A stretch of 64,000 nt of DNA from Klebsiella electrica (lineage in GTDB: Bacteria > Pseudomonadota > Gammaproteobacteria > Enterobacterales > Enterobacteriaceae). A program made the translations under genes and the position numbers. Below the pieces are notes generated by a model, which was not told the origin of the DNA, searched no databases, and was given only the letters and a program-made list of their open reading frames with translations. Position 1 is the first letter of the stretch. Every line of letters starts with the position of its first letter. This document shows, piece after piece, positions 34,594-57,900 of the stretch. The stretch covers positions 62,001 to 126,000 of the forward strand of contig NZ_CP041248.1 in the NCBI RefSeq assembly GCF_006711645.1. Direction: 5' to 3'.

Positions 34594-34599
34594 GCGCAT

Positions 34600-41662: not shown

Positions 41663-41901
41663 TGATGTCGAAGCTTAAGCTAGGCCCCATCGCGGACGAC
41701 AAGCCGCTTAAGGTACAGGTCGAGCTACCTGCAGCTCTCCACCAGGACCTTGTTGACTACGCCCACCTATTGGGCCGAGAGCAAGGTCAGTCCGCTGTTG
41801 ACCCAGCTCGGTTAATCGTCCCGATGTTACAACGGTTCATCGCGACAGACCGTGGCTTCGCCAAAGCCAGGCGAACGTTGACGCCGGGGAGCGCCGATTA
41901 A
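41662..41901 (+). CDS. DUF2274 protein
   Basis: A 79-residue protein (MMSKLKLGPIADDKPLKVQV), typical of the DUF2274 gene that follows trbI in alphaproteobacterial and Tn4371-like integrative elements. It looks like a ribbon-helix-helix protein (VELPAALHQDLVDYAHLLGRE). The start overlaps the trbI stop. Confidence 0.85.
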   Translation: MMSKLKLGPIADDKPLKVQVELPAALHQDLVDYAHLLGREQGQSAVDPARLIVPMLQRFIATDRGFAKARRTLTPGSAD

Positions 41902-42794
41902 TCCGTGGTCCCCGCTCTAGAGGGGGTGTCGAAACACTTCAGCAGCAGCGGCAGAGTCGGGTTGTCGTTGTCACTGGAAGAAATTATAGCGGCCGTCGGC
42001 GCCCGCGCCGATGGGAGCGGGATCAACGCGATATCCGGCCGGTAGATCACGCTGGTGATGGTCAAGCCGAAGCCCTGTTCGACCATCGTCAGCAGGGTTT
42101 CTCGGCTGACTTGTTGGATCGAGAGTTGAACCGCTCCGTCTCCGGCGCCCACCATGCGCCGGAGTATGCCAGCGAGCTCACGCCCAGCGCCATCCGAGCG
42201 AACGAGGAAGACTTCGTCACAAACGTCCTCCCACGACAGCTGTGGCCGTGCTGCCAACTCGTGAAGCGGGGACAATGCCACGAACAGATCTGGTTCGCAG
42301 AGACGTCGAACTTGGAACTGAGGGCTCTTGCTCGCACTCAGGCTGATTGCTGCGTCCAGTAATCCGCGCTTCACCCCCAAAGTGTTTTCTTCTGAAGTGC
42401 CTTCCTCAAGCTTTACCTCGATCGTCGGATGTCTATTTCTGAATGCCGAGAGAATGTTGATGATCGGGCACGCCGGGAACGCTTCAAGCATTCCAAACCT
42501 CACGAGCCCGGTCTTGAGTTTCCGCGCGGAGCGGATCTCCGTTGCGGCGTTACGAAGGTAGCGCGCTCCCACCACCGCTTGTTGAAGGAAGCGCTCACCT
42601 TCTGGAGTCAGCCCTGCCCCCGCTCGCGTACGCTTGAAGAGAGAAAAGCCAAGTTGGCGCTCAAACAGCTGCACACGTCGGCTGACGGTGGATTGCGATA
42701 TCGATAGGCGCTCCGCCGCTCGGCGGAAGCTGCCGGCCTCGGCGACCTGAACGGCGTACTTCAGGTATCGGAGATCAAGAGTCAGGTCGGGCAT
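41898..42794 (-). CDS. LysR-family regulator of the trb locus type
   Basis: 298 residues: N-terminal helix-turn-helix AEAGSFRRAAERLSISQSTVSRRVQLFERQLG and an effector domain from about 95. It overlaps the end of the DUF2274 gene convergently. A LysR gene at this place is common in sphingomonad trb clusters, so it belongs to the conjugation block rather than to the stress island. Ligand unknown. Confidence 0.88.
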   Translation of the reverse strand: MPDLTLDLRYLKYAVQVAEAGSFRRAAERLSISQSTVSRRVQLFERQLGFSLFKRTRAGAGLTPEGERFLQQAVVGARYLRNAATEIRSARKLKTGLVRFGMLEAFPACPIINILSAFRNRHPTIEVKLEEGTSEENTLGVKRGLLDAAISLSASKSPQFQVRRLCEPDLFVALSPLHELAARPQLSWEDVCDEVFLVRSDGAGRELAGILRRMVGAGDGAVQLSIQQVSRETLLTMVEQGFGLTITSVIYRPDIALIPLPSARAPTAAIISSSDNDNPTLPLLLKCFDTPSRAGTTD

Positions 42795-43022
42795 GAGACC
42801 CGTCCGATCATACCGGCGGTCTCATCGGCGAACCGCCTGCGCCCGGTGAGCGGCACCCATGCACGTCCACTTTCATCGAGCCCACCCCCGCTAGCGCCTG
42901 GGGAACGAGCACGTCCGTTGATCTCAGATGTGGAATCCGAGCTGAGCCCCTCAATGAGCATGACCATGTCCGAATCTGTCATAGATGCATGCGGCGGTCA
43001 TACATTTTCACACGCTTGAAGT

Positions 43023-43039
43023 CTATGCGCGAAGCATAT
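43023..43039. promoter_or_regulatory. Island operator 1, at the first MarR promoter
   Basis: CTATGCG-CGA-AGCATAT, a near match to the ATATGCG-N3-CGCATAT dyad seen upstream of five transcription units. It overlaps a probable -10 (TATATT, 43037-43042), and the ATG follows 12 bases later, which suggests autoregulation. Confidence 0.6.
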
Positions 43040-43050
43040 ATTCTTGCGGT

Positions 43051-43584
43051 ATGGAGCCTGAGGTCGCCAAGTACCATTTAGGTGCACTCGCGTTGGCCGT
43101 TGCAGACAGCATCGCCAGTGTCTCGGCCTCGTTTTCACCAAGCGGCCCGGGGACCGCCGTGATGGTGTTACTCAGCATGGAGCCCGGACTGCCGATCAGC
43201 GTTTTGGCTACCTCGATCGGGCTTTCTCATGCCGGGACGGTGCGATTGATCGATAGGCTCGAGCGCGAACAGTTGGTGGAACGACGAAGACAAATCACCG
43301 ACAGGCGGGCGCGCTTCATTCACCTCACCAATTCGGGGAAGAAGATAACGGACGCCTTGCTCAAGGCACGGGAGCAGGTGATCTCCGAATGTATTTCGCC
43401 CCTGTCGCCCAATGACCTCGACATTCTAGGCATGCTGTCGGAGCGGCTCCTTGTGGCAAACGGCTTCGACAAAGATGGCTCGGTCAGCCTTTGCCATCTG
43501 TGCGGCTACAGCAGGATCGCGCCTTCCCGTGGTAAAGCTAAGCCGGGGCGCTCGCCACGCTGGAACGTCGCATCAGAAGGCTGA
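43051..43584 (+). CDS. MarR-family regulator 1
   Basis: A 177-residue winged-helix protein: SVLATSIGLSHAGTVRLIDRLEREQLVERR and wing TDRRARFIHLT. I start it at ATG 43051 because that aligns with MarR 2 and follows the operator. A single C-terminal CHLC pair remains of the longer cysteine motif seen in MarR 2. It is 26 bases upstream of the YeeE gene and probably controls the island. Confidence 0.85.
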   Translation: MEPEVAKYHLGALALAVADSIASVSASFSPSGPGTAVMVLLSMEPGLPISVLATSIGLSHAGTVRLIDRLEREQLVERRRQITDRRARFIHLTNSGKKITDALLKAREQVISECISPLSPNDLDILGMLSERLLVANGFDKDGSVSLCHLCGYSRIAPSRGKAKPGRSPRWNVASEG

Positions 43585-43610
43585 CGATATGATCAGGCAG
43601 GCTTGAAATA

Positions 43611-44570
43611 ATGGGATCGTTTGCGCTCGAACTTCTTCTATGCGTACTTGCCTTCGGGTTCGGATATGCGGCGAACCAAGGCGGAACCTGTTTAGTGGTG
43701 GCCGCTCATGAGTTACACAGAAGACAGCCGCCGAAAATGTTCGTCGGATTTCTCGCAGCGTCGGCAGCGGCAGGCCTGGTTGCGGTCCCGATAGTCTGGA
43801 CGGGAACACTGGGCGCAACACTCGCACCCTCGACCAGCATCAATTTCCTCCTGCTCATCGGCGCCATCGCCTTCGGCCTCGGCGCACTCATTAATGACAC
43901 ATGCCTGCTCGGATCGCTGGCGCGGCTTGGGGATGGGGAGATGCGACTTCTAGCTCTACCCTTGGGATTAACGATTGGTATCTTGGCTGCCGACCATGGC
44001 AGGTTCGGCTACGATTCAACATGGCCAAGCTTAATCTCCAAACCGAGCGCAACAGGCCTCGTTACTCTCCTAGCCTTCCTAGTTGTGCTCGTGCTGGCAC
44101 TCGTTTTCGTTTCCACGAAGAGCGTTCTGCGAACAAAGCCGGGTTGGTCGTTCGGCGCTTCGATGATTGGACTCGGTATCACTGGCGGACTTCTATATGC
44201 ACTCTCGCCGGCCTGGACCTTCGCAGACGTGATTCAACGCGCCCTTCCTCTCAGAATGTCCCCGGCCGGCGAGGTCGCGCTCACTGCGGTGATCTCTTCG
44301 ATCGCAGGCGCCCTAACCGCCTCCTTTCGCCAAGGCAATCTGCGTCTCCAACTGCCGACAGCCAATGGCATTCTGCGATCTGTCGTCGGCGGCACATTGA
44401 TGGGTATCGGCATCGCGCTCATACCCGGCGGGAATGATGGGTTGATCCTCGCAGCGGTTCCGACTCTTTCACCTGGTGGGATAGTCGCCTACCTTCTGAT
44501 GACGACGACAATCGTCTTCGGATTTGCAGCGCGTGGTAAGTTATTCCGGCGCTGCCTTTCACGGCCATGA
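43611..44570 (+). CDS. YeeE/YedE-family sulfur-compound transporter
   Basis: A 319-residue membrane protein with about nine hydrophobic helices. Family cysteines sit in NQGGTCLVVAAHE and INDTCLLGSLARLGDGEMR, the thiosulfate path of YeeE/TsuA. It lies in an operon with MarR 1. Import of thiosulfate or a related sulfur anion would feed thiol synthesis; the substrate is inferred. Confidence 0.82.
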   Translation: MGSFALELLLCVLAFGFGYAANQGGTCLVVAAHELHRRQPPKMFVGFLAASAAAGLVAVPIVWTGTLGATLAPSTSINFLLLIGAIAFGLGALINDTCLLGSLARLGDGEMRLLALPLGLTIGILAADHGRFGYDSTWPSLISKPSATGLVTLLAFLVVLVLALVFVSTKSVLRTKPGWSFGASMIGLGITGGLLYALSPAWTFADVIQRALPLRMSPAGEVALTAVISSIAGALTASFRQGNLRLQLPTANGILRSVVGGTLMGIGIALIPGGNDGLILAAVPTLSPGGIVAYLLMTTTIVFGFAARGKLFRRCLSRP

Positions 44571-44608
44571 TAAGGGCAACAGAGGACTTGCCCTCCTGAC
44601 ATGAGCAT

Positions 44609-44995
44609 TTATCCCGACCGGGAATATCGGCTGACTAGCTCGTATGCCTTTGCAGGCCCTTGGACCATGATGACCACTTCAAAGGCCGCCGGCCCCAGAA
44701 TCCTGTAGGTTGCATGGTAGGTGTCGTCTCCGCAGGCATAGACGCCACTCGCTTCCAACCCGGTATCCGTCCGCGAGAAACTCAAGCTGAGGAACTGCGT
44801 CCCGATATGAGGTCCGTCTGCGAACTCGACGACAACACTGTCCTCGCTCAAGCGATAGCGATACTGCCGGCACGCGGAGAATACTCTGCCATCTGCCAGT
44901 GAGAGAATGCCGCTCTCTCGATAAGCGAGCGCGCCTTCGCCGATCGCTGCTACGATTTCGGTGGGCATGGTTATCTCGTCCAGGGCCGCGTCCAT
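44609..44995 (-). CDS. DUF6314 family protein
   Basis: A beta-rich protein that reads like DUF6314: ALAYRESGILSLADGRVFSACRQYRY, then VEFADGPHIGTQFLSL, CGDDTYHATYRI and VQGPAKAYELVSRYSR. Its N-terminal strand is shorter than usual. I take ATG 44995; a TTG at 45019 is possible. It is divergent from the DUF417 gene across operator 2. Function unknown; possibly a lipocalin-like ligand binder. Confidence 0.6.
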   Translation of the reverse strand: MDAALDEITMPTEIVAAIGEGALAYRESGILSLADGRVFSACRQYRYRLSEDSVVVEFADGPHIGTQFLSLSFSRTDTGLEASGVYACGDDTYHATYRILGPAAFEVVIMVQGPAKAYELVSRYSRSG

Positions 44996-45173
44996 CCGTA
45001 CAGGCTGGACGTTTGCCAACGGGCTATAGGCCCACCCGGAGCGCCAGCCCCATCAAGTCAAAATCCCGCAAAGGTCGCGCGTTTGCTGGGTAAAGGCATC
45101 GCCGATGAGGATGGCTTCGTGAGGCAGCGAAGCGCGAGCCAGCCGCTCGACATATCTCGCTTATTAGTATATG

Positions 45174-45194
45174 GTATATGCGTCGCGCATATAC
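45174..45194. promoter_or_regulatory. Island operator 2, perfect dyad
   Basis: Nine-base arms GTATATGCG and CGCATATAC around TCG, with no mismatch. It lies between the divergent DUF6314 and DUF417 genes, 72 bases from the latter's ATG. Confidence 0.75.
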
Positions 45195-45265
45195 TGCAAC
45201 GCCTGCCCGAAGCACGTAGACGACGTTCGTGACGTTCCCACGGGACCACTGTTGAGGAATTTTAG

Positions 45266-45754
45266 ATGAGCATTTTCGACCGTTATGAATTTCTTGTCCC
45301 CGAGCACGGTCGGAGGGATCTTGGCCTGCTTAGATGGGCTCTCGTGATCGTATTTCTGTGGTTCGGCGCGATGAAGTTCACAGCGTACGAGGCCTATGGT
45401 ATCGCCCCGTTTATCGAACACAGCCCGATCATGAATTGGCTCGGCATGTTCGGGACGCAGGGGCAAAGCTATTTCATCGGCGTTATCGAGTTATCGACCG
45501 GTCTCGTTCTGATCCTTGGTGCATTTCGTCCACTCTTCTCTGCGCTAGGCGCACTAATGTCAGCAGCGACCTATCTGATCACGCTGACCTTTTTCATCAC
45601 CACTCCAGGTGTCGCGGAGCAGACTGCCGGCGGCTTTCCTGCGATTTCGGCTGCACCAGGGCAGTTTCTACTGAAGGACGCAGTTCTGCTAGCGGCGTCC
45701 CTCGTGCTGCTGCGTGCTTCGGTCCGCCACAGAGGGGCGCTTGTGCTCTCGTGA
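45266..45754 (+). CDS. DUF417 inner-membrane protein (RclC/YkgB-like)
   Basis: 162 residues with four hydrophobic segments. It follows E. coli RclC closely in pattern: LRWALVIVFLWFGAMKFTAYEA, IAPFIEHSPIMNWL, VIELSTGLVLILG, TLTFFITTPGV and GQFLLKDAVLLAAS. RclC belongs to the reactive-chlorine resistance operon. The perfect operator 2 lies upstream. This gene is the strongest hint that the island answers hypochlorite-like stress. Confidence 0.82.
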   Translation: MSIFDRYEFLVPEHGRRDLGLLRWALVIVFLWFGAMKFTAYEAYGIAPFIEHSPIMNWLGMFGTQGQSYFIGVIELSTGLVLILGAFRPLFSALGALMSAATYLITLTFFITTPGVAEQTAGGFPAISAAPGQFLLKDAVLLAASLVLLRASVRHRGALVLS

Positions 45755-45767
45755 CTGTGGTCCTCTC

Positions 45768-45995
45768 GTGACGGCGGGCGTGCAAATCCTGCAGAACCTC
45801 CGCGGGGCATGGATGCTCCGTCGCGATATCGAGCCCGGAGGCGCTCAGCTGCATGGCGACGCGGTCTTCGCCCGTTTCGCCGCAATCCCCGACGTCGTGG
45901 AGCACGGACTGTTCCTCAATGGGATTGATACAATCGTGATCGCGCGCGGTGACACGATGGAAGTGCGACGCCGGGGGCAAGCTAGGTCTCGCTGA
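45768..45995 (+). pseudogene. DUF6314 fragment (N-terminal half)
   Basis: A GTG-started frame with LRGAWMLRRDIEPGGAQLHGDAVFARF, the DUF6314 N-terminal signature, which then degenerates after about 50 residues. The DUF6314 gene at 44609 lacks precisely this N-terminal strand. The two may be relics of one duplicated gene. Confidence 0.5.
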
Positions 45996-46237
45996 TCTGC
46001 ACCTGCGCGGCCTGGATGACAGCGCTGACGCGGAGTGATTCTCGGGCGCGACCTACGGCGATTCCGAGCGAAAAGGCTTGCCCTATAGCCGCCAGGTATC
46101 AACGGTTCCGCGGCCTTAACGAGCCGGACCCGTTTTTTTCGGCGCGCTCGATCAGTCGAAATCCTCCGAAACCCTTCTAAAACAGGACATTTTCCACAAG
46201 CCGCGCGGAGGAAGAGGACCACGGTATGGCTTGCTGT
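45996..46237. other. Intergenic region before MarR 2
   Basis: No gene is seen. GC-rich, with a T-run near 46133-46139 preceded by GAGCCGGACCC, a weak terminator candidate. The MarR 2 promoter must lie at its right end. Confidence 0.4.
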
Positions 46238-46258
46238 CTATGCTCCGCGCACATATAG
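46238..46258. promoter_or_regulatory. Island operator 3, at the second MarR promoter
   Basis: CTATGCTCC-GCG-CACATATAG, an extended and less regular version of the island dyad. It ends nine bases before the MarR 2 ATG, matching the arrangement at MarR 1. Confidence 0.5.
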
Positions 46259-46266
46259 ATGTGGCA

Positions 46267-46806
46267 ATGGATGGACCTCGAGATCGAAACATTTTCGGGG
46301 CGTTCGCACTCATGATCAGCGACGACATCGTTCGCGCTAGTTCATCGCGGGCGCCGGAAGCTGGACCCGCCGCCTCAGCGCTGGCGTTGCTCGCGCACAA
46401 GCCCGGGCTCTCGATCCGTATGCTTGCGATCGGGGTGGGCCTTTCACATGCTGGAACTGTTCGCCTGGTGGATAGATTGGTAAGCGAGGGATTGATCGAG
46501 CGTAGGGAGCATTCGACAGACGGGCGCGCGCGATCCCTCTATCTTACTCCAACTGGCAAGGTCGCGAGCGACGAGGTCCTGGCCTCGCGCGATCAAGTGA
46601 TTGCCGAAGGGCTATCGATCCTTAATCCAGACGAACTGAAAACCTTATCGGACATCGCTGAACGCGTTCTCCGAAATCGCTTGGAAAACCTCGAGCAGTC
46701 ATACCGCATCTGCCGCTTGTGCTGCTACGAGGGCTGCACGAACTGCCCCGTCGATGCCGAATTGCATGAGCGAGGTGTGGACCGCGAGAAGAACGACGAC
46801 GCGTAG
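46267..46806 (+). CDS. MarR-family regulator 2 with a C-terminal cysteine cluster
   Basis: A 179-residue paralogue of MarR 1 (shared GLSHAGTVRLVDRLVSEGLIERR). After the winged helix the tail reads CRLCCYEGCTNCPVD, five cysteines that could bind metal or form disulfides on oxidation. The ATG at 46267 aligns with MarR 1; a TTG at 46231 would put the operator in the coding region. A redox- or electrophile-sensing repressor is likely. Confidence 0.83.
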   Translation: MDGPRDRNIFGAFALMISDDIVRASSSRAPEAGPAASALALLAHKPGLSIRMLAIGVGLSHAGTVRLVDRLVSEGLIERREHSTDGRARSLYLTPTGKVASDEVLASRDQVIAEGLSILNPDELKTLSDIAERVLRNRLENLEQSYRICRLCCYEGCTNCPVDAELHERGVDREKNDDA

Positions 46807-46814
46807 GAGACTCG

Positions 46815-46937
46815 CAATTGCGGCAGCTCAACGCTGCTCAGATGGCGGGGCTTCATAATGTCAGCGAGCCTACCATCAGCCGCATTCTTTTGGCTACGCG
46901 TCAAGCCGGCCGATCGGGCATGGCGGTCTCATTCTAA
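46815..46937 (+). pseudogene. C-terminal remnant of a serine recombinase
   Basis: A startless frame QLNAAQMAGLHNVSEPTISR followed by ILLATRQAGRSG and a TAA at 46935. The N-V-S-x-P-T-I-S-R-I helix resembles the DNA-binding end of resolvases. It suggests an old insertion boundary inside the island. Confidence 0.4.
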
Positions 46938-47202
46938 TATGTCGGTGATCGCCCCACTTTTAGCCGCTCAATTGATCGGAACGCGGTTTCGGAAGCGGCC
47001 GTTCAAACCACTCGCTGCATTCCCATTTCTCTATGTCCGATAGGTAGTTTCGGGGAAAAGCAGTCGGGAACAGGTTTCGGGAACGCATGCTCCGGCAGGA
47101 GCGCAGCGCGCGTCCCACACGCGTTTTCCCGGTAGAGCTTCCCAATCGGCAAAGTGCGGGCCACCTCAGACTGCGAACGCGAAAAACCGCCTGGCTGGTC
47201 AC
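46938..47202. other. Stretch without a recognised gene
   Basis: This 265-base stretch lies between the recombinase remnant and the oxidoreductase gene. Only shadow frames and a few GGAACG/CGTTCC words are seen. No island dyad is present. Confidence 0.35.
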
Positions 47203-48231
47203 TCAAGGCAGGGTAACGACGATTTTCGCTGCGGATACACCCGCCTTCAGGGCTTCCAAGGCAGCCTGGAGCATTTCAAGGCCCTGGCCCACGATCTTCG
47301 CCGGAGGGGCGGGGACGAACGTGCGCGCCGCGAGAGCCTGCGGCAGGAATTCGCGGTAGATCATTGGACCAACCTCGTCATCCTTGAGGCTCGTCCCGGA
47401 GATGTGCGTCGCCTCGACTCCAAATGAACGCTCGTCGGGCGGGGCCAGCGTCGCTGCCACCCGGCGCGAGCCCTCGCATCTCGCAACTACGGCAAAACAG
47501 TCTTTCATGTGACCGGTCGCGTGAAGCGTTCCAGCGAGACTGCGCCCGCGCATTGCCTCAATCACGTCTTCCACGATGGCTGGACTCGAGTGGTCAAGAA
47601 CCTCGCTTGCACCCAGCTCCTTCAACAGGCCGACGTTGCGCGCCGAAGCGGTGGCGACGCACCTGTAGCCCGACGCCACCGCGAGCTGGATGGCGTTGCA
47701 GCCAACGCTCGACGATCCACCCCAGACCAGAACGACCTCTGGACGCGCGGTCGGCGAGTGTAACGGTGGCGCGAGAGCCAACTGTGTCCGTCCGTAGAGC
47801 CCGCTTGCGGCGGTGCCAAGGCCAAGCGGGAGGACTGCCGCATCAGCGAAGGCAATGTTGTTGGGGATCGGCGCCGCCATGTGGTCCAGCACGATCGTGT
47901 GGTGCTGGAACGCACCCTGCGCAGGTTGATTTACGGTTGTCCCGACCGCCTGTCCGATGACTCGATCGCCGACCTTGAACCGCTCGACCGCGCCACCGAC
48001 CGCCGCGACCTCACCGGAGACGTCGCTGCCGAGAATCGCGGGATAGTCGAGCCATGGCAAAAGCGCGACGTCCTGCAGAATCCAGTCGAGTGGGTTGATC
48101 GCGATGGCCGCGTTGCGGATCAATATCTCGTTCGCCGCCAGATGCGGCAGAGCGGTGACACCGATCCTCAGTGGCTGCCCCGGCGCTTTCTGCCAGGCGG
48201 CCTGATTAGTCACGGTTTCGGTCATCATCAA
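47203..48231 (-). CDS. Zinc-type alcohol dehydrogenase/quinone oxidoreductase family protein
   Basis: A 342-residue medium-chain reductase: N-terminal [32 protein letters not shown], nucleotide motif [16 protein letters not shown] (Rossmann turn) and [11 protein letters not shown]. It lacks the zinc-ligand cysteines of true alcohol dehydrogenases, so it is likely an NADPH-dependent reductase of enals or quinones. Its ATG overlaps the msrA stop. Confidence 0.82.
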
Positions 48232-48791
48232 CTCTTTCTGTCAAGTATTACAGCTGGGCGTTCGTCTGAGCGGTCCAACCGCCAGGTCGGGCGCACGAAG
48301 TGGCAGCTATAGCCCCCAGGATAGCGCACCAGGTATTCTTGGTGCTCTGGCTCCGCCTCCCAAAAGGGTTCTTCTGGGTTGATCTCCGACACGACCGGGC
48401 CAGGCCAGCTTCCTGATGCCTCGATTTCCGCGATGGTTGTGAGGGCGACTTCCTTCTGCACTTCGGTGGTGTAGAAAATCGCCGATCGATAGCTCGGACC
48501 GACATCGCTGCCTTGTTGCTCGTAGGTCGTGGGGTCATGTATCTGGAAGAAGAGTTCCAAGAGCGAGCGATAGGCGAGAACGGAAGGGTCGAAGGTCACT
48601 TCCACTGCTTCCGCATGGCCGTAATGTCTCGCGTAGGTCGGATCAGGCATTTCTCCGCCTGTGTAACCGACACGCGTCGAAATGACTCCCCTGGCTCGGC
48701 GCAGCAAATCCTCCATGCCCCAGAAGCAGCCGCCTGCGAGAATTGCTCGCTCTGTCGCGGCCGCCCTATTGCCGGTAGGCGATTGGCTCAC
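48228..48791 (-). CDS. msrA: Peptide methionine-(S)-sulfoxide reductase, copy 1
   Basis: 187 residues from GTG 48791 (AGGAGG upstream). Catalytic [16 protein letters not shown], then [20 protein letters not shown] and EFF..HDPTT-type segments ([19 protein letters not shown]). It repairs oxidised methionine. Second gene of the operon hydrolase/OsmC-msrA-oxidoreductase, with an operator at the operon head. About two-thirds alike by eye to copy 2. Confidence 0.93.
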
Positions 48792-48823
48792 AGTCCGTTC
48801 GCCCTCCTCCGTGTGCGCCACGG

Positions 48824-50056
48824 TCAAGCCAGCCTCGCGGGATCCGCAGCCTGACTGGCGCTCAAGAGCTCGGTCTGCACGTCCGAACCCCGGATGAGAC
48901 TCAGATCGACGGGACACCGATCAGCGATCGCGAGGATCCGAGCGCGCTGATCATCACTCAGCGGCCCATCGAGGACAATGGTGCGGGTGAACCGGTCGGG
49001 TGGCATCATGTCCGGCACCTTCTCGTGCTGCACGGTCGTGCTCGCCCGTTCGAGCGGAAAGCCCTTGCGGTTCGCATAGAGACGCATCGTCATCACCGTG
49101 CAGGCTGCGAGGCCGGCAGATACGAGTTCGTAGGGAGATAGTCCGGTCCCGAGGCCACCGACCGATGCTGGCTCGTCGGCGAACAGAGTGTGCTCGCCGC
49201 TGCGGACCTTGAGCTGGAACGTCCCTGCAAGAGTTTCGGTGGCGACGACGCCCTCCGCAACCTCGATCTGCGGAAGATCCGCGCTGAGTGGTGGGAGAAA
49301 GCGGCTCGCCCAAACCGCCACCATGGCCGCGGCGTAGTTCGCGTCCGCGACGTCGGTGAGAAGGTGATCCGCGTTGTCGAGCGAGATGAAGCTTTTAGGG
49401 TGCCTGGACGCGACGAAGATGCGCGACGCGTGGTCGATGCCGACCACCTGATCCAGCGGAGAGTGCATGACCAGCACCGGCCGTCGCAGGGAGGCAATGG
49501 CCTTCTCGACGTCGATCCCCTCAACCGCCTCAAGGAACCCTCGGCGAATGAGGAAGGGCCTACCGGCAATCTCCACCGAGGCCTCGCCCTCGCTCGCGAT
49601 GGTGTCCAGATCATTCGGTCCGAAGAGGCGCAAGATATGCTGAAGGTCGGCCGGCGCACCAATCGTCGCTACCGCCGCAATATCAGGCATGTCGGCGGCG
49701 GCTACGATCGCAGCGGTGCCACCCAGGCTGTGCCCGACGAGGAGGGACGGTGACATGCCCGCCGCCGCCATCGCATTTGCGGCGGCCCGAAGGTCCTCGA
49801 CGTCCGACGCGAAGTTCACAGGTTCTCCCGTCCCACCGCCGATCCCGGTCCCGGCGAAATCGAACCTCAAGACCCCGATGCCCGCACGCGACAGCGCGCG
49901 CGAGATGTGAACAGCGGCGCGACTGTCTTTCCCGCACGTGAAGCAGTGGGCGAAGATCGCCCAGCCCCGCGGCGTCCCTTCCGGCGGTTCGAGGTGCCCG
50001 GACAGCGGAGAGCCAGCCCCACTGACAAACGTAAATGATCTTCCTGCCATGTCCAT
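48824..50056 (-). CDS. Alpha/beta hydrolase fused to an OsmC domain
   Basis: 410 residues from ATG 50056 (GGAGG six bases upstream). Residues 1-255 are an alpha/beta hydrolase with nucleophile Ser110 in VGHSLGG and Asp/His in HSPLDQVVG and NADHLLTD. Residues 270-410 are Osm[23 protein letters not shown] with one peroxidatic Cys and [10 protein letters not shown] with the second. Such fusions are known; OsmC reduces organic hydroperoxides. First gene of its operon, under operators 4 and 5. Confidence 0.9.
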
Positions 50057-50157
50057 CAAACCTCCAGCACGCGGCTTGGCGGTTGCGCTCTCAGAACCTT
50101 CGACGGAGCTGAGCGGAGCGCACCGCCAACCGGTAATCGTCATCTCAGGCTATCATT

Positions 50158-50216
50158 TATATGTCTGGCGCATATAGACAAGCCCCTATATCATGATTAT
50201 ATGCGCCAAGCATACT
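50158..50216. promoter_or_regulatory. Island operators 4 and 5, tandem dyads in a divergent promoter
   Basis: ATATGTC-TGG-CGCATAT at 50159-50175 and ATATGCG-CCA-AGCATAC at 50199-50215. Their centres are 40 bases apart, close to four helical turns. They lie between the hydrolase/OsmC operon (minus) and the LysR gene (plus) and can control both. Confidence 0.7.
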
Positions 50217-50284
50217 TCTGCGACCTGCGTTCCAAAGGCGGTCTCACGGAAGAGGTATCAGTCAGGCGCGTGGGCCAAAGGACT

Positions 50285-51160
50285 ATGGAACTCAATCAAG
50301 TCAGCTATTTCATCAACTTGGCCGAGACGCTGAATTTCACAGCGGCCGCTCGCTTGAGCGGTGTGTCACAGCCAAGTCTGACCCGCGCGATCCGCCGCTT
50401 GGAAGATGAGCTTGGCGGGCCGCTGATCTATCGCGACGGGAAGAACAGCCGCCTGACTGGCCTTGGCCATGACGTCGAGGCAGAATTCCGGCGCATGGTG
50501 GTCGCGATGAAGAGCGTTCGCAATCACTCGGAGCACTGGGCGATGGGGGGGCACCGCGTGCTGGATGTCGCCGTCGCGCCCACCGTCGGACCAAAGGAAT
50601 TTACGGCATTCTTCGAGAGCGCATTGGCGGAGATGCCATCCATCGAAATCAAGCTGCACTCGCTCCAGTCGAACGAGGACACATCGGAGGTGCTTTCAGG
50701 AAAATACCACGCGTGCATCATGCCGCGTGAAACAAGACCGGAACGCAAGCTGGATGTGCATCCTCTATTTCGGGAGCGCTTCGTGCTCGGCTGTTCTGCA
50801 AACCATCCCTTGGCTGCCAACGAGATCGTGCGCGGCGAAGACCTGCTCGAGTTTCCTTTCGTCGATCGCCTGAAATGCGAGTTTCGCGATCGGATCCTCG
50901 ATCACTTCGCGCGACGGGACTTGCTCATGCGACCTCGCTTTCGATCAGATCGCGAGGACTGGGTGCAACGGGTCGTCGCTGACGGCCACGCCATATGCAT
51001 TCTTCCGGAACGATCGCCGACCGTGCAAGGCCTCGTCACTCGGCCGATCGACGGATTTGTCTTGGAGCGCGAAGTCGTGATCGCGACAGTATCCGGCTCC
51101 ACGGCAACGGTCGAGATACGGAACATCGCGCAGCTGGCAGCCCGGTATGAGTGGAACTGA
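50285..51160 (+). CDS. LysR-family regulator of the stress island
   Basis: 291 residues from ATG 50285 (MELNQVSYFINLAETLNFTAAARLSGVSQ), classical LysR helix-turn-helix then effector domain. Five cysteines are spread through the effector domain (HACIMPR, LGCSANH, LKCEFRD, AICILPE among them), which leaves room for thiol-based sensing as in OxyR or hypochlorite regulators. It is divergent from the OsmC-msrA operon and upstream of msrB. Confidence 0.88.
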   Translation: MELNQVSYFINLAETLNFTAAARLSGVSQPSLTRAIRRLEDELGGPLIYRDGKNSRLTGLGHDVEAEFRRMVVAMKSVRNHSEHWAMGGHRVLDVAVAPTVGPKEFTAFFESALAEMPSIEIKLHSLQSNEDTSEVLSGKYHACIMPRETRPERKLDVHPLFRERFVLGCSANHPLAANEIVRGEDLLEFPFVDRLKCEFRDRILDHFARRDLLMRPRFRSDREDWVQRVVADGHAICILPERSPTVQGLVTRPIDGFVLEREVVIATVSGSTATVEIRNIAQLAARYEWN

Positions 51161-51193
51161 ATCACGACGTGAAGAGCTTCGGCGCTATGGAAA

Positions 51194-51238
51194 CTATACG
51201 CGCAGCGTATTGGATAAATCTGGGGCGCATGCTATAGT
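51194..51238 (+). promoter_or_regulatory. msrB promoter with island operator 6
   Basis: CTATACG-CGC-AGCGTAT at 51194-51210 overlaps the start of a -35 box TTGGAT (51210-51215). After a 17-base spacer comes -10 TATAGT (51233-51238). A repressor at the dyad would block polymerase. Confidence 0.6.
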
Positions 51239-51305
51239 CGGCGCAATGACTGCAAAGATAAATGACAGTGTGTCGAGCTCTCTAGATTAATTATTGGAGA
51301 CTATC

Positions 51306-51749
51306 ATGAAGTTTGAGAAGTCACAGGCAGCAGTTGACCGCCTGACCCCCGAGCAACGCCGGATTACCCAGGATTCGGGGACCGAAAGGCCCTTCACGGG
51401 TGAGCACAACGACAACAAGGAGCCTGGCATCTACGTCGACATAGTGTCGGGAGAGCCGCTGTTCGCTTCAACGGACAAGTTCGATTCGGGTACTGGCTGG
51501 CCCAGCTTCACCAAGCCGATCGTTCCGGCAAACGTGAACGAGGTGCGGGACAGTGCACACGGCATGGTCCGGACGGAGGTCAGGTCGGTACACGCCGACA
51601 GCCATCTGGGCCACGTTTTCCCGGACGGTCCTTCCGACCGCGGCGGTCTGCGCTACTGCATCAACTCTGCGTCCCTTCGCTTCATCCCGCGCGACGAGAT
51701 GGAGTCCGAGGGATACGGTGAATATCTCGATCAAGTAGAGGAGGCTTAA
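51306..51749 (+). CDS. msrB: Peptide methionine-(R)-sulfoxide reductase
   Basis: 147 residues from ATG 51306 (GGAG eight bases upstream). [12 protein letters not shown] and the catalytic [13 protein letters not shown] are clear, with substrate His residues in [14 protein letters not shown]. The zinc CxxC pairs of many MsrB proteins are replaced ([18 protein letters not shown]), so it is the zinc-free form. It heads msrB-msrA-gst-corA. Confidence 0.94.
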
Positions 51750-51750
51750 C

Positions 51751-52290
51751 ATGCATCAGCGCGCTGTTCTCGCAGGAGGATGTTTCTGGGGCATGCAGGA
51801 TCTGATCCGCAAGCGGCCCGGCATCATCTCGACCCGTGTGGGTTACACGGGCGGCGATATTCCGAACGCCACGTATCGTAATCACGGCACGCATGCCGAG
51901 GGGATCGAGATTGTCTTCGACCCGACAGTGACGAGCTACCGGCACATCCTGGAATTCTTCTTCCAGATCCACGATCCGACGACGCTGAACCGCCAGGGCA
52001 ATGATCGTGGGCTCTCCTACCGGTCGGGCATCTATTATGTCGACGAGGAGCAGAAGCGCGTCGCCGAGGATACGATCGCCGATGTGGATGCCTCGGGGCT
52101 GTGGGATGGCAAAGTGGTGACCGAGGTCCAGCCGGTCGGCGAGTTCTGGGAGGCCGAGCCCGATCACCAGGATTATCTGGAGAAGCGGCCGGGCGGCTAC
52201 ACCTGCCACTTCGTCCGTCCCGACTGGGTTCTTCCAAAGCGGCATGAGGCCGGCGATGTGAGCCCTGCGGCCGGGGCTGCAGCGGAATAG
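51751..52290 (+). CDS. msrA: Peptide methionine-(S)-sulfoxide reductase, copy 2
   Basis: 179 residues, [21 protein letters not shown] at the start with the catalytic Cys, [20 protein letters not shown], and a C-terminal [10 protein letters not shown]. One base separates it from msrB. With MsrB it repairs both sulfoxide forms. A second MsrA lies on the opposite strand nearby. Confidence 0.94.
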
Positions 52291-52422
52291 GCTTCGCTGC
52301 CGTTAGTGCCGCGCCGATCCGGTTCGCAACCTCCGACGACCGCGTCAATCGACGCGGTCGTCGAACCCGGCCTTGAAGCAGATCATTCCATTCAGCCGCC
52401 GTCGCAGTGCCAGGATCCAGAT

Positions 52423-53127
52423 ATGACAGACCTCTCCTCCTTTCCCATCACGCAGCGCTGGCCAGCATCTTATCCGGATCGCTTGCAACTATACGCGGCC
52501 CCCACGCCCAACGGCGTCAAGGTCTCGATGATGCTGGAGGAGACTGGCCTGCCGTATGAGCCCCACTTCGTCGACATCTCGAACAACGAGTCGAAGGATC
52601 CAGCGTTCGTGTCGTTGAATCCCAACGGCCGCATACCCGCGATCATCGATCCGGCTGGCCCTGACGGCCAGCCCATTGGCATATGGGAAACCGGTGCGAT
52701 CCTCATCTATCTGGCCGACAAGACGGGGCAGCTCATCTCAACAACACCCGCCCAGCGGTACGAGACTCTGGCCTGGGTGTTCTTTCAGGTGTCGGGCGTT
52801 GGGCCGACCTTCGGACAGCTAGGCTTTTTCCTGCGATTTGCCGGCAAGGACTATGAGGACAAGCGACCTCGGCAGCGCTTTGTTGATGAATCCAGGCGTC
52901 TTCTCGGGGTCCTGGATCACCGGCTGGAGGGCCGCGAATGGATTGTCGATGATTACTCGATCGCGGACATTGCGACGTTTGGCTGGGTGAATGCGCTGGT
53001 CGAATTCTACGCAGCGGGCGACATCCTCGGCCTAAGCAGCTATTCGAACGTGCAGGCATGGCTCGAACGCGGGCTGGCGCGACCGGCTGTACAGCGTGGC
53101 CTGCGAATTCCTGCGAGGCCTGCATGA
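52423..53127 (+). CDS. Nu-class glutathione S-transferase (YfcG/YghU-like)
   Basis: 234 residues from ATG 52423. The thioredoxin-fold N-terminus has APTPNGVKVSMMLEETGLPYE, as in YfcG, with ISNNESKDPAFVSLNPNGRIPAI; the helical C-terminal half has FGQLGFFLRFAGKDYEDKRP. Such enzymes use two glutathiones as a disulfide reductase or remove electrophiles. It overlaps corA by four bases. Confidence 0.9.
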   Translation: MTDLSSFPITQRWPASYPDRLQLYAAPTPNGVKVSMMLEETGLPYEPHFVDISNNESKDPAFVSLNPNGRIPAIIDPAGPDGQPIGIWETGAILIYLADKTGQLISTTPAQRYETLAWVFFQVSGVGPTFGQLGFFLRFAGKDYEDKRPRQRFVDESRRLLGVLDHRLEGREWIVDDYSIADIATFGWVNALVEFYAAGDILGLSSYSNVQAWLERGLARPAVQRGLRIPARPA

Positions 53128-54092
53128 CCATTATCGCCGCATATTATTACAACGAAGGTAAGCGAGTCCGTGAAATCAGGCTCGATGAGCACGTCGAACT
53201 AAACGAGAATCGCTCGGGCTTCTGCTGGATCGCGCTTAGCGAGCCCACCGCAGACGAACTCAGCGCGATCCAGACGACGTATAACCTCCATCCTTTGGCG
53301 ATCGACAACGCCATGCACCCGCTGTGCCCGCCCAAGCTCGAGGTCTACAACAATGAGTTGTACGTCGTCGCCCAGACCGCCGAGCTGGTCGGCGACCGGA
53401 TCAGCTACGGCAAGATGGCGATCTTCACCGGTCACAATCACCTTATCACCGTGCGGCACGGCAATGCCGGAGCGCTGGGCAAACTTCGGGAGCAACTCGA
53501 GGCATCGCCGACGCAGTTCGGCAAGGGTGTCGACTATGTGCTGCACGCGATCTTGCACCGAGTGGTCGACCAGTATCTGCCCATCTTCGAAATGATCGAG
53601 GACGACGTCCTGGCGATGGAGCGACGGTCGCTGCACGATTTCCTCGGGCCAGAAGAGGTGGCGCGAATCTTCGAACTAAGGTCCGAACTCACGCGGTTCC
53701 AGCGCACGCTCGGGGCTATGGCCGAGCTGGTGCGAAAGCTCGTTCGCGGCCACTTTCCCTGCATCAGCGCCGAAATGACACCATATTTCCACGACGTCGC
53801 GGACCATGTCCACCGCGTGCAGTCCATGGTCGACGGCCTCCTGCTTGTCCTGTCCACGGTCTTCGAGGCCAGCAGCCTTCTGGAAGCGCAAAGGATCGGT
53901 GTGGTCACTCGCCAGCTCGCGGCCTGGGCGGCGATCTTGACGGTCCCGACGGCGATCGCCGGAATATATGGCATGAACTTCAAGCACATGCCGGAACTGG
54001 ACACGCCATATGGCTACTTCGTCGTGCTCGGAGTGATAGCGGTGTTCTGCCTTCTCCTGTTCATGCGCTTCAAGAAGGCCAAGTGGCTATGA
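53124..54092 (+). CDS. corA: CorA-family divalent-cation transporter
   Basis: 322 residues from ATG 53124. A long cytoplasmic alpha/beta region, then two C-terminal transmembrane helices joined by the signature YGMNFKHMPE, and a basic end RFKKAKWL. It forms a pentameric Mg2+/Co2+/Ni2+ channel. The last gene of the island before the ars transposon; its link to oxidant defence is unclear. Confidence 0.93.
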   Translation: MTIIAAYYYNEGKRVREIRLDEHVELNENRSGFCWIALSEPTADELSAIQTTYNLHPLAIDNAMHPLCPPKLEVYNNELYVVAQTAELVGDRISYGKMAIFTGHNHLITVRHGNAGALGKLREQLEASPTQFGKGVDYVLHAILHRVVDQYLPIFEMIEDDVLAMERRSLHDFLGPEEVARIFELRSELTRFQRTLGAMAELVRKLVRGHFPCISAEMTPYFHDVADHVHRVQSMVDGLLLVLSTVFEASSLLEAQRIGVVTRQLAAWAAILTVPTAIAGIYGMNFKHMPELDTPYGYFVVLGVIAVFCLLLFMRFKKAKWL

Positions 54093-54122
54093 GTAACGCA
54101 CTTCGCGAGCTTCTCCGTCCGC

Positions 54123-54160
54123 GGGGTTTGAGAGCCAATGGAACGAAAACGTACGCTAAG
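54123..54160. repeat. Left terminal inverted repeat of the ars transposon
   Basis: Starts GGGGTTTGAGAGCCAATGG and ends GTACGCTAAG. Two mismatches to the right end (positions 6 and 11). The tnpA stop lies at its inner edge. Confidence 0.92.
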
Positions 54161-57100
54161 AAGTTAATTCATTGTTTAAATTGAAATTTAGTTCTCTCAG
54201 TTCCCCCTTCAAAATATCCTCCGGTAGCGTAAACGTATAATGCCCCAGCATATTGATATGCCCGTGCATCAGTGGGGACAACCGGGCGATATCTTCAACC
54301 CCGATTTCTTCTCCATTACTGCGTATCCAGCTCAGGGCTTCCTGCATATAAAGTGTGTTCCACAGTACCACTGCGTTAGTGACCAGGCCCAGTGCCCCCA
54401 GCTGATCTTCCTGACCTTCACGATAGCGCTTTCTGATCTCACCGCGCTGCCCGTAGCAGATCGCCCTCGCCACAGCATGGCGGCCTTCCCCCCGGTTTAG
54501 CTGCGTCAGGATCCGCCGACGATAATCCTCATCATCAATATAATTAAGAAGGTACAGCGTCTTGTTGACGCGCCCCACTTCCATGATCGCCTGTGCCAGC
54601 CCTGATGGGCGCGAGCTTTTCAGCAAAGAGCGAATGAGTTCTGAAGCATGAATGGTGCCCAGTTTCAGCGAACCGGCGGTTCGCATCATCTCATCCCACT
54701 GATCCTCGGCTTTCGACAGATCGGCACAACCACGTGCCAGTTCGTCCAGTGCACCGTAATTTGCCGATTTATCCACTCGCCAGAATACCGCTTCACCGGC
54801 ATCGGCAAGCCGGGGGGAAAACTGGTATCCCAGCAGCCAGAAGAGGCCAAAAATAATGTCGCTGGTACCGGCTGTGTCTGTCATGATCTCAACCGGATTC
54901 AGCCCTGTCTGCTGCTCCAGAAGGCCTTCCAGCACAAAAATGGAATCTCGTAATGTGCCGGGGACAACGATGCCGTGGAATCCAGAGTACTGATCAGAGA
55001 CGAAGTTGTACCAGGTGATGCCACGTCCGGAACCAAAATATTTTCTGTTAGGTCCTGAATTGACGGTTTTCACCGGCGTGACAAAGCGCATGCCATCAGC
55101 TGAAGCCACTTCGCCACCACCCCAGCGGCCAGCAAGCTCCAGTGTGGACTGAAAATCAACCAGGCGGGCATTGGCGCTGACCAGCGTTTCTGCCCGGAGG
55201 TAATTCTGTTTTACCCAGCTAAGCCGGTGGCGCGTCAGCGCCGGTATATTGTGCTTTATCAGCGGTTCCAGCCCGATATTGCAGGCCTCTGCCATCAGGA
55301 CCGCGCACAGGCTGATGTGCAGATCCTGTGCCCGGGCCCCGGATTCACTGACATGCGTAAACTCACGTGTAAATCCCGTTCTGGCATCTATTTCAAGCAA
55401 CAGTTCCGTCAAATCTACTGGCGGGAGTAGCAGCCTTACCCGACTGTTGAGACGATGCAACGATGTTGGCTCCTCCAGTTTCTCCAGGCTGCTGATAGTC
55501 AGGGAAGGATGTTTACCGTCATGGCAAATATGAACCTCCGCATTTCCTTCAAAGCGGGATGCGACGGTTTTCCAGGTTTCATCTAGCTGGACCGCCAACT
55601 GTTGCACGCCTTTATGTCCATCAGTGGGATGTCCCAGCGCCCGGCAAACGGGGACCCGCTGAGCCTGCCATTCTTCCCCCTGCAACAGCTTCTCGCGGGG
55701 ATTTCCCCAGCGATCGCTGTTTTCGAGCCAGATGTCCCTTCGACGTAGTGCATCCTGAAGGCGCTCCAGCAGACAAAGCGAGTAACCGGCACGCTGTATC
55801 CGGCCCTCCGCATCGTATACCAGGCGTTTCCAGGGGCCGGTAATAATATGTTCAGGCGCATTGTCCAGGATGCGCTTTTTCGAGCAGTTCAGTTCGGTCA
55901 GATAATGAATGGCGGACAACGTATGTTCTCCGGCTGGCGCTGCCTGGAAATGCAGGTCGCGCAATACCGCCGGAAGAAAGCGCTTTACCCGCCCGTACTG
56001 CTCCACCATTTCGTCATGGAAATTGTTGTTCTGAGGCCGGGCCAGCTCATTTACCTTGCAGACGGATTCTGCCAGCCTGCTTTTCGGTATGCTGTTGAAT
56101 ATGGTCTCCCTCAGTTCAGCATCGTCAGCCTGTTCATCCAGCAACAATGAACATGCCCGCGCCAATATTAGCGCAGCACGATCAAGATCTTTAAGCGTCC
56201 TGAGCCGTTTTTTCTGCCCCGTTTTCTTCGCCGCACGAGTGATATCCAGTATCAGCATATCGAGCACATCAACGGCCTCATCCAGCGCCGCAGTCTCCTG
56301 CGCTTTAACGAATGCTGTGAGTACGGCCAGTTTTCTCTGCTGTGGCATTCGCGCGATATATTTTACCGACGCCATGCCTGCGTAACGGGCCAAATTACGC
56401 AGTTGTATAGCAGGCAGACCGGTAAAATTCAGTCGGGAAAATTCCAGGTTTCGCAGCCGGATATACCGCTCCAGCGCTTCGGTAAATGCCGGGCCGCTGA
56501 CGGTGACCGGTCCCTTTTTCAGTTGCTCCAGCGGTGAAGTACGCTGCCCCTCAGGAATGTCCAGAAGCTCCGTCACGCGGGCGGTCTGCCAGCTGTCCGG
56601 CAACGCGGCCAGTTTCTTCCACAGCCGCTGATTTGCCCGTTCGCGTATTTCACTGACGAGACGTACAAGTGTGGTTGCTCCGGGCAGCAGGACCTTATTC
56701 TGAAGCAGCCACGCGGTGGCAAAATCAAACATAAGGCCGGGTCGCTCATTACTGAGCCATGCGCGGGTGTACAGCAGGCGCTTCAGGCGGAAAGACCAGG
56801 GGAAATCGCCAAATTCATGGTAACCGTAATATTCCTTAATCAGCGCAGTATGCTCTCTGAGGGTGGTAACCCGTTCTGCGTAGCGGGTAAGGACTTCTGG
56901 ACGGCGAATATTAAGCTGCACCGCGACAAATTGCTGAACACCTGGCAGAACCCGGGTTAAGTCTGTCAGAAAGGTGCCCAGAAAACGGGCGGTGGTGAGC
57001 TGAAGCGCAATTCCCAGCCGGTTATGCCTTCCCCGCCGCTGGTTAATGAAGGCAAGATCCCGCTCATCAAGATGAAAATAGCGCGCCAGCTGCACGTCAT

Positions 57101-57164
57101 TGGGTTCTGCAACATAGCGACCATAATTCAGTTCCTGCTCAGTGGTCAGAAAATCGACGGGCAT
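54156..57164 (-). CDS. tnpA: Tn3-subgroup transposase
   Basis: 1002 residues, the Tn3 length. It starts MPVDFLTTEQELNYGRY like Tn3 TnpA. The catalytic part has SADGMRFVTPVKT, HGIVVPGTLRDSIFVLEGLL, IMTDTAGTSDIIFGLFWLLG and NRGEGRHAVARAICYGQ. It looks complete. It is divergent from tnpR as in Tn3, and distinct from the Tn21-type transposases elsewhere in the window. Confidence 0.95.
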   Translation of the reverse strand: MPVDFLTTEQELNYGRYVAEPNDVQLARYFHLDERDLAFINQRRGRHNRLGIALQLTTARFLGTFLTDLTRVLPGVQQFVAVQLNIRRPEVLTRYAERVTTLREHTALIKEYYGYHEFGDFPWSFRLKRLLYTRAWLSNERPGLMFDFATAWLLQNKVLLPGATTLVRLVSEIRERANQRLWKKLAALPDSWQTARVTELLDIPEGQRTSPLEQLKKGPVTVSGPAFTEALERYIRLRNLEFSRLNFTGLPAIQLRNLARYAGMASVKYIARMPQQRKLAVLTAFVKAQETAALDEAVDVLDMLILDITRAAKKTGQKKRLRTLKDLDRAALILARACSLLLDEQADDAELRETIFNSIPKSRLAESVCKVNELARPQNNNFHDEMVEQYGRVKRFLPAVLRDLHFQAAPAGEHTLSAIHYLTELNCSKKRILDNAPEHIITGPWKRLVYDAEGRIQRAGYSLCLLERLQDALRRRDIWLENSDRWGNPREKLLQGEEWQAQRVPVCRALGHPTDGHKGVQQLAVQLDETWKTVASRFEGNAEVHICHDGKHPSLTISSLEKLEEPTSLHRLNSRVRLLLPPVDLTELLLEIDARTGFTREFTHVSESGARAQDLHISLCAVLMAEACNIGLEPLIKHNIPALTRHRLSWVKQNYLRAETLVSANARLVDFQSTLELAGRWGGGEVASADGMRFVTPVKTVNSGPNRKYFGSGRGITWYNFVSDQYSGFHGIVVPGTLRDSIFVLEGLLEQQTGLNPVEIMTDTAGTSDIIFGLFWLLGYQFSPRLADAGEAVFWRVDKSANYGALDELARGCADLSKAEDQWDEMMRTAGSLKLGTIHASELIRSLLKSSRPSGLAQAIMEVGRVNKTLYLLNYIDDEDYRRRILTQLNRGEGRHAVARAICYGQRGEIRKRYREGQEDQLGALGLVTNAVVLWNTLYMQEALSWIRSNGEEIGVEDIARLSPLMHGHINMLGHYTFTLPEDILKGELRELNFNLNNELTS

Positions 57165-57900
<736 letters not shown>

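Follow-up and report, generated by a model that had tools for sequence, protein, structure and literature searches.

The RclR-RclABC system of Escherichia coli, which is directed at reactive chlorine or hypothiocyanous acid (HOSCN), is redox-controlled and includes an inner-membrane protein of the DUF417 family. A repressor and a DUF417 protein are likewise combined in the three-gene RcrARB operon of uropathogenic E. coli (UPEC), where the repressor, RcrR, is TetR-like. The core of tLST is made up of heat-shock and protease genes. This mobile island gives chlorine resistance in the Enterobacteriaceae (PMC8407380), and RcrB, the DUF417 protein of RcrARB, is described as the main defence of a UPEC strain against hypochlorous acid (HOCl), with no difference seen for a UPEC repressor mutant under H2O2 (PMC9600549). 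The gene neighbourhoods of chlorite dismutase (Cld), as described by Barnum and Coates (2022; PMC9751292), are also mobile and contain pairs of methionine sulfoxide reductase (Msr) genes, glutathione S-transferase (GST), LysR, quinone reductase-like oxidoreductases and Tn3 transposases. The block of genes analysed here occupies 41.9–54.1 kb of a 64,000-nucleotide stretch of Klebsiella electrica DNA (contig NZ_CP041248.1, positions 62,001 to 126,000; hereafter the window). It has features in common with each of these systems and is a real and conserved module for oxidant defence, mobile and probably co-regulated.

The block differs from RclR-RclABC in using MarR and LysR regulators, in adding Msr, OsmC, GST, YeeE and CorA proteins, and in being mobile; neither the AraC-type family of RclR nor the flavoprotein family of RclA is found among the scanned block genes. 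RcrARB has no Msr, OsmC or GST, unlike the block, and the scanned block genes include no TetR gene, which separates the block from RcrARB. Likewise, the heat-shock and protease core genes of tLST are absent from the scanned block genes, so that the label tLST does not apply. In contrast to the Cld neighbourhoods, the block is without Cld, and MarR, OsmC and DUF417 are absent from the main text of PMC9751292. Literature searches of open-licence PMC papers found no description of the set as a unit.

The window is carried on a 304-kb contig, the largest contig listed for the same genome being 5.27 Mb. All of the genes named in the original prediction are present, open and recognised by Pfam. LysR1, DUF6314, CorA and an rpiA remnant were missing from that inventory, which otherwise stands. 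To the right of a tail of trb genes, the block reads as follows.

41898..42794, minus strand: LysR1 regulator (Pfam LysR_substrate and HTH_1)
43022..43040: putative operator 1, TCTATGCGCGAAGCATATA, before MarR1-YeeE; two mismatches to the palindrome, with a counterpart before MarR1 in relatives
43051..43584, plus strand: MarR1, Cys tail with the first CxxC only (C148, C151)
43611..44570, plus strand: YeeE/YedE-type sulfur transporter (PF04143, 73 bits)
44609..45019, minus strand: DUF6314 protein (PF19834)
45175..45193: putative operator 2, TATATGCGTCGCGCATATA, a perfect match between DUF6314 (minus) and DUF417 (plus)
45266..45754, plus strand: DUF417 (RclC/RcrB-like) membrane protein without Cys (PF04224, 102.7 bits)
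45864..45983, plus strand: rpiA remnant, last 40 codons only (similarity to the RpiA of locus L040)
46237..46255: putative operator 3, TCTATGCTCCGCGCACATA, directly before the MarR2 start; three mismatches, retained in most relatives
46267..46806, plus strand: MarR2 regulator, C-terminal CxxCC-x3-CxxCP tail (Pfam MarR_2/MarR)
47203..48231, minus strand: zinc-less MDR/quinone-oxidoreductase-like reductase, accessory (profile scans)
48228..48821, minus strand: MsrA1 (TIGR00401, 158.6 bits, cut-off 108.1); start ambiguous, as annotated relatives disagree
48824..50056, minus strand: alpha/beta hydrolase-OsmC fusion (Hydrolase_4 and OsmC; Cys 319 and 381 in the OsmC half)
50158..50176: putative operator 4, TATATGTCTGGCGCATATA, between the OsmC fusion (minus) and LysR2 (plus)
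50198..50216: putative operator 5, TATATGCGCCAAGCATACT, 40 bp from operator 4
50285..51160, plus strand: LysR2 (C144, C170, C198, C238)
51192..51218: conserved element (CTATACGC...GCGTATTGGATAAA) upstream of msrB, conserved in a 22-sequence alignment
51306..51749, plus strand: MsrB, single Cys, no zinc site (TIGR00357, 192.6 bits, cut-off 113)
51751..52290, plus strand: MsrA2 (TIGR00401, 167.4 bits, cut-off 108.1)
52423..53127, plus strand: YghU/YfcG-like (nu-class-like) GST without Cys (profile scans)
53124..54092, plus strand: CorA-like transporter (PF01544, 184 bits)

When MarR2 was used as bait against one genome per species, with one of the six word patterns falling in the Cys tail, 58 loci were found. 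Two were excluded from the counts, L064 (a 38% chance hit) and L065 (a fragment matching MarR1), and the other 56 were grouped by hand into 27 lineages, 26 non-mobile and one mobile (14 loci). With presence set at ≥55% identity over ≥60% of the length, the 26 non-mobile lineages contain MsrB in 24, MsrA2 in 24, LysR2 in 23, CorA in 23, the OsmC fusion in 20 and GST in 20. Fewer have DUF417 (10), YeeE (9), MarR1 (5), LysR1 (4), TrbG/TrbI (4), DUF6314 (2) or the reductase (1). Absences are upper bounds since some loci stop at contig ends, and the counts for MsrA1 and MsrA2 are not independent because each can match the other. Gene order is mostly kept across the lineages, and in L054 the genes are reshuffled yet still together. 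The recurrence of the set in mostly the same order is more than chance. The proposal of a real unit, one block of alphaproteobacterial origin, is therefore borne out by co-occurrence in many lineages, and a common operator, described below, ties its promoters together. The enal/quinone-type reductase (47203-48231), named as one of the set, is present in the window; with a single count in the non-mobile lineages, it is not part of the core. A second lineage has the gene cut by a contig end and was left uncounted (L034).

Two genes without Pfam matches lie downstream of CorA in 23 and 19 of the 27 lineages. This pair, for example at L025:18489-19094 and L026:12535-12990, has been lost in the window, and by eye the second protein resembles the GreA C-terminal domain. 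Other genes carried by relatives are redoxin (13 of 27), MFS (13), GAPDH (9), a ZupT-like transporter (8), RpiA (5) and two kinds of RidA (6 each). The ratio of non-synonymous to synonymous substitution (dN/dS) is approximately 0.03–0.31 where computable, for twelve genes and up to six loci each; pairs below 55% identity were excluded, and no value was obtained for two MsrA1 pairs.

A 19-bp palindrome, TATATGCG-N3-CGCATATA, was spotted by eye in upstream alignments at several of the block promoters. At up to three mismatches there are five sites in the whole window, all within the block and in four promoter regions: 43022 (MarR1-YeeE), 45175 (DUF6314/DUF417, perfect), 46237 (MarR2), and 50158 with 50198 (OsmC fusion/LysR2). 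None of 100 shuffled sequences reached five sites (mean 0.24, maximum 3). The host genome (5.8 Mb) has three sites at up to two mismatches, all inside the block, and its top-scoring site is operator 2. When the spacing was left free (0–8), the block had 10 matches at up to three mismatches, against 2 for the remaining 51.8 kb. In nine alphaproteobacterial genomes with the island, 24 of 33 operator sites are within the fetched island loci, and a reversed control pattern yielded a total of 3 sites across ten genomes (the host and these nine). Six of the nine sites outside island loci were inspected; three are at paralogues of MarR, DUF417, MsrA or LysR2 and the other three are not.

Every one of the 27 lineages, each examined through one representative, has at least one operator site at up to four mismatches. 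The positions are mostly before the same genes as in the window, and also before GAPDH/RpiA and once before RidA. There are 26 OsmC/LysR2 operator pairs, 23 with a spacing of 40 bp and 3 with 41 bp. No operator at up to three mismatches was found in the fetched stretches of the regulator-less relatives L002-L004 and L117. The most likely start is 43051 for MarR1 and 46267 for MarR2, the shorter starts being preferred because the longer ones run through the operator. The element at 51192..51218, with four mismatches to the palindrome and a different spacing, is a candidate LysR2 site. Taken together, the operator pattern appears to be the signature of one MarR-controlled regulon; the regulatory wiring of the block is predicted with good support, and binding to the operator is a prediction.

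Both MarR regulators of the original prediction exceed the Pfam cut-offs for the family (PF01047/PF12802, 34–41 bits against 24.6/27). Their recognition helices, LSHAGTVRLVDRL in MarR1 and LSHAGTVRLIDRL in MarR2, are nearly identical, and therefore both should bind the same operator. The Cys of MarR2 are found only at 150–161 of its 180 residues. Of the five in this tail, four are unchanged in all 24 aligned sequences and the fifth is present in 23 of 24. A search independent of the genome scan found the motif in 119 of 120 homologues, these being the best 120 of 315 matches. MarR1 has Cys at 114, 148 and 151, and its tail retains the first CxxC alone. Thiol-based MarR regulators of the OhrR/MgrA type have a reactive N-terminal Cys, which neither protein has, and so this label does not fit.

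Each of the four Cys of LysR2 is conserved in all 23 aligned sequences, in agreement with the earlier description of a LysR with many cysteines. In OxyR, the peroxidatic C199 acts with C208. By eye, in an alignment to an OxyR structure, LysR2 C198 is one residue off the position of C199 and there is no Cys at the place of C208. With no C208 partner and 70.8 of the 329 bits of the OxyR equivalog, LysR2 is not an OxyR. The Cys of the MarR regulators and LysR2 may sense oxidants.

The association of the operator with these genes was also assessed without the MarR2 bait. The sample comprised 397 genomes from the family to which Sphingopyxis witflariensis, the seed, belongs, and the seed was among them. 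LysR2 at ≥79% identity is present in 3, DUF417 (E ≤ 1e-30) in 9 and the operator (up to one mismatch) in 14; the control pattern was noticed in one genome (G396). All three of the LysR2 genomes, which include the seed, have both DUF417 and the operator. The operator is in 5 of the 9 genomes with DUF417 and in 9 of the 388 without it (Fisher p 3e-6; 5e-5 when the seed is excluded; uncorrected for relatedness). Five further genomes have a LysR at 37–42% (E ≤ 1e-60), one with DUF417 and another with the operator. Ten of the 14 operator genomes were fetched, three are the island genomes and one (G500) was omitted. In six of the ten a MarR relative (34–44%) is near the site, which in five is at its start; the reading frame of the relative in L107 is unclear, and one of the ten has a relative that is truncated by eye. 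Since most of these genomes show a nearby MarR relative, the operator tends to accompany this MarR clade, often where the remaining block is absent. A one-mismatch operator before the G6PD (zwf) gene of an island-less genome (L110:3887), one of three among the ten with no MarR nearby, may be chance. The island itself is rare: among 289 genomes sampled evenly from the class, 2 have LysR2 at E ≤ 1e-60, the seed genome and another at only 44% identity.

The three Msr proteins all exceed the equivalog cut-offs, so that both MsrA are as predicted. MsrB holds one Cys only and therefore lacks the usual zinc CxxC pairs, in keeping with its description as zinc-free. The alpha/beta hydrolase-OsmC fusion has both of its domains. 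For the DUF417 protein the Pfam family is matched and the RclC equivalog is not (89.2 bits, NF040476 cut-off 275), making it RclC-like, as had been stated, rather than RclC. Likewise, the YeeE protein matches Sulf_transp and reaches 32 of the 400 bits for TsuA, so that the sulfur transporter family holds and the TsuA identity does not. The best matches of the GST are YghU (161 bits, cut-off 325) and YfcG (146 bits, cut-off 332); these are consistent with 'nu-class', though both are under the equivalog cut-offs.

On this basis, MarR1 and MarR2 would repress their own promoters and the block through the palindrome. The Cys-rich tails, five Cys in MarR2 and two in MarR1, would act as the sensor, with oxidation or loss of a metal freeing the repressors from DNA. 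LysR2, through its four invariant Cys, may be a second redox switch for msrB-msrA2-gst-corA. MsrA and MsrB would then repair methionine sulfoxide, OsmC would reduce hydroperoxides, GST would apply glutathione to disulfides or electrophiles, and YeeE would import a sulfur source. DUF417 may protect the membrane. The likeliest natural inducer would be reactive chlorine (HOCl, chloramine or chlorite products).

The 14 loci of the mobile lineage (L008-L021) are near-identical copies in Enterobacterales, Thauera, Zoogloea, Brachymonas, Pseudochrobactrum and metagenome-assembled genomes (MAGs). L014 and L016 are near-identical on the left with diverged last genes (GST 82%), mosaics in which the plasmid type is combined with an alphaproteobacterial one. 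Block parts are also found under an Acidobacteriota label (L010) and a Myxococcales MAG label (L059), where misbinning is possible. Apart from L064, L065 and L059, the remaining loci are diverged, alphaproteobacterial by title, and approximately 79–95% identical to MarR2. Among them is a version shared, at nearly constant identities, by Sphingopyxis, Sphingobium, Sandaracinobacter, Roseomonas, Aurantimonas, Mesorhizobium and Aliihoeflea; it adjoins TrbG/TrbI wherever the locus extends far enough, as expected of a mobile element. TrbG/TrbI are the only Trb genes seen next to the island in relatives. The ancestors of the block are alphaproteobacterial, some adjoining conjugation genes. The alphaproteobacterial part of the predicted sphingomonad-like donor is thereby upheld. 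A strictly sphingomonad donor is not, as the nearest diverged relatives include Bosea (L024) and Hyphomicrobium (L052), as close or closer by protein identity, beside a Sphingomonadales MAG (L034).

The rpiA remnant matches the RpiA beside the L040 island at 25 of 40 residues (62.5%, E 1e-10). As full RpiA is present in relatives, the plasmid copy descends from a larger form; the copy in the window derives from this larger module and, though cut short, is mostly intact. Distal genes are missing because a Tn3-family transposon cuts the block after corA. DUF417 is inverted in L016, L021 and L065 (Hyphomicrobium-type and Methylobacterium MAG copies that hardly differ from the plasmid block); this is its orientation in the majority of the diverged relatives, and these copies are a possible pre-plasmid form. 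The features that bound the block are:

39118..41901, plus strand: TrbF-like (VirB8, truncated), TrbG, TrbI and DUF2274 genes (Pfam VirB8/CagX/TrbI; DUF2274 by name in annotated plasmid relatives), the tail of an alphaproteobacterial-type conjugation operon, co-carried with the block
54123..57900: Tn5403-type Tn3-family transposon (transposase and resolvase; right end set at the end of the resolvase gene)

The Tn3 element of the relative L001 is annotated Tn5403, and plasmid matches to the window break at 54122/54123. Its right-hand repeat was not found in the 57.3–58.4 kb searched. To the left are ISPa38 and IS4321, named from an almost identical plasmid, and mer is also among the surroundings. 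A cupin protein and a nucleotidyltransferase/DUF86 (MNT/HEPN-like) pair are beside ISPa38 (33559-34599). Elsewhere in the window, 17296-20246 contains CoA-disulfide reductase-like and Dps-like genes, with a Tn3-family transposase close by in a near-identical plasmid; these are possibly a second redox cargo.

The stretch 41898-50143 is matched by 163 of 72,556 plasmid records. The match extends over ≥80% of its length in 110 of these and has ≥99% identity in 156, and the leading hosts are Citrobacter (60), Klebsiella (38) and Enterobacter (30). The near-identity of the copies indicates that the spread is recent. Among 5426 complete E. coli genomes, 17 have a match, 4 of them over ≥80%, and all are on plasmids. 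The listed sources include wastewater, river water, a sink, a shower and patients, and this list is dominated by a few wastewater projects. Plasmid pFBAOT6 (NC_006143.1) carries the block and, past CorA, two unknown genes, RidA and an MFS gene. No inverted repeats that would make the block a single transposon were found in this plasmid, in which the long repeat pairs consist of ISPa38 and a similar stretch on the opposite side. The msrB-msrA-gst-corA segment alone is present at 98.6%, 95% and 91% identity on plasmids of, for example, Aeromonas, Acinetobacter and Pseudomonas. A second msrB/MsrA/glutaredoxin/sulfite-oxidase-like set is near the block on an Aeromonas caviae plasmid (L005:23798-31612), and one MsrA of this set (WP_001281573.1) is also on an Acinetobacter plasmid (L003).

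A role against oxidants is well supported by the gene content as predicted from sequence, and within this role reactive chlorine is the best single candidate inducer, at a little over one half. RidA, present in relatives and not in the window, is described as an HOCl-specific chaperone (PMC7464077). HOSCN itself does not oxidise methionine according to PMC12096828; as the Msr genes point to methionine oxidation, HOSCN is less likely. Two Msr proteins, WP_003464967.1 and WP_003464965.1, are among the examples of Cld-linked proteins given in PMC9751292, which also describes a cupin subfamily as strongly Cld-linked. These two belong to the 91%-identical Pseudomonas plasmid set, as its MsrA and MsrB, and Cld is located on that plasmid approximately 12.5 kb past corA. 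Among 12 other island genomes, one (Bosea, G009) has two Cld matches barely over the cut-off.

The evidence points with fair assurance to a mobile, self-contained oxidant-defence regulon, against which several observations weigh. There is no good palindrome site at the msrB promoter, and with a free spacing of 0–8 and up to four mismatches the contrast fades, to 18 sites in the block and 12 in the other 51.8 kb. In the family sample, G338 has DUF417 and a 42% LysR with no operator in the stretch fetched. The window copy is without the distal genes and an intact rpiA, many carriers look environmental by title, and DUF417, the strongest marker for chlorine, is in just 10 of the 26 non-mobile lineages. 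On the Pseudomonas plasmid, 13 annotated genes separate corA from Cld and an integron integrase adjoins Cld, so that this link may be chance; the distance exceeds the 10 genes that define a Cld neighbourhood in PMC9751292. No Cld (PF06778) was found in the window's own genome, which rules it out as a part of the system there, or in 6 of 7 plasmid records. Co-transfer as mobile cargo could also account for part of the linkage. In its full form, that the genes merely travel with successful mobile elements, have no joint function in the Enterobacterales and owe their abundance to hitch-hiking with IS, Tn3 and resistance regions, this explanation is improbable. It is favoured by the Trb fragments, insertion sequences, Tn3-family transposon and mer around the block, by the near-identity of most plasmid copies and by the few wastewater projects behind many of the listed records. 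The common operator and purifying selection in diverged relatives, however, speak against it, as does retention of the set in lineages where no Trb genes were seen.

A regulon with an inducer other than chlorine, such as organic hydroperoxides, quinones, isothiocyanates or other electrophiles, with Msr and OsmC mending secondary oxidation, is a somewhat better prospect than cargo alone and still doubtful. OsmC, GST, the reductase and MarR-type sensors would suit hydroperoxides or electrophiles, and the relatives in Sphingomonas, Hyphomicrobium and Mesorhizobium belong to genera of soil, water and plants. In addition, OsmC, DUF417, GST and YeeE are unnamed in the main text of a paper on the HOCl/HOSCN response of Pseudomonas aeruginosa (PMC7950407). 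Three Msr genes and DUF417 nevertheless suggest strong oxidants, DUF417 and the RidA of relatives have HOCl-linked precedents in the sources above, and related Msr genes appear among the Cld-linked examples of PMC9751292. That the palindrome has another function, for instance in control of mobile-element replication or transfer, and is not a MarR site is very unlikely: three of the ten fetched operator genomes have no MarR nearby, which also counts against the regulon, yet the sites are located at promoters, touch or run into the starts of both MarR genes, and accompany MarR or DUF417 genes outside the island. The most specific form of the regulon reading falls a little short of an even chance. 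In it, the block would be an undescribed, portable reactive-chlorine regulon in which a MarR clade with a five-Cys C-terminal sensor and a 19-bp operator of its own controls a full kit: repair by MsrA/B, detoxification by OsmC, GST and redoxin, membrane defence by DUF417, the chaperone RidA, and a spare GAPDH and RpiA replacing oxidant-sensitive originals. Carried on alphaproteobacterial mobile elements, one copy would have escaped to the plasmid pool of wastewater and hospital Enterobacterales, where disinfection would keep it.

The 19-bp palindrome common to four promoter regions of the block is new here and, with the sensor tail, offers a testable operator. If the oxidant-defence regulon is as proposed, DUF417, which confers HOCl resistance in UPEC by an unknown action, would gain a second, independent genetic context. 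Plasmids in sinks, sewage and patients would then hold a ready-made, inducible oxidant-defence programme, and disinfectant use would be linked to plasmid persistence.

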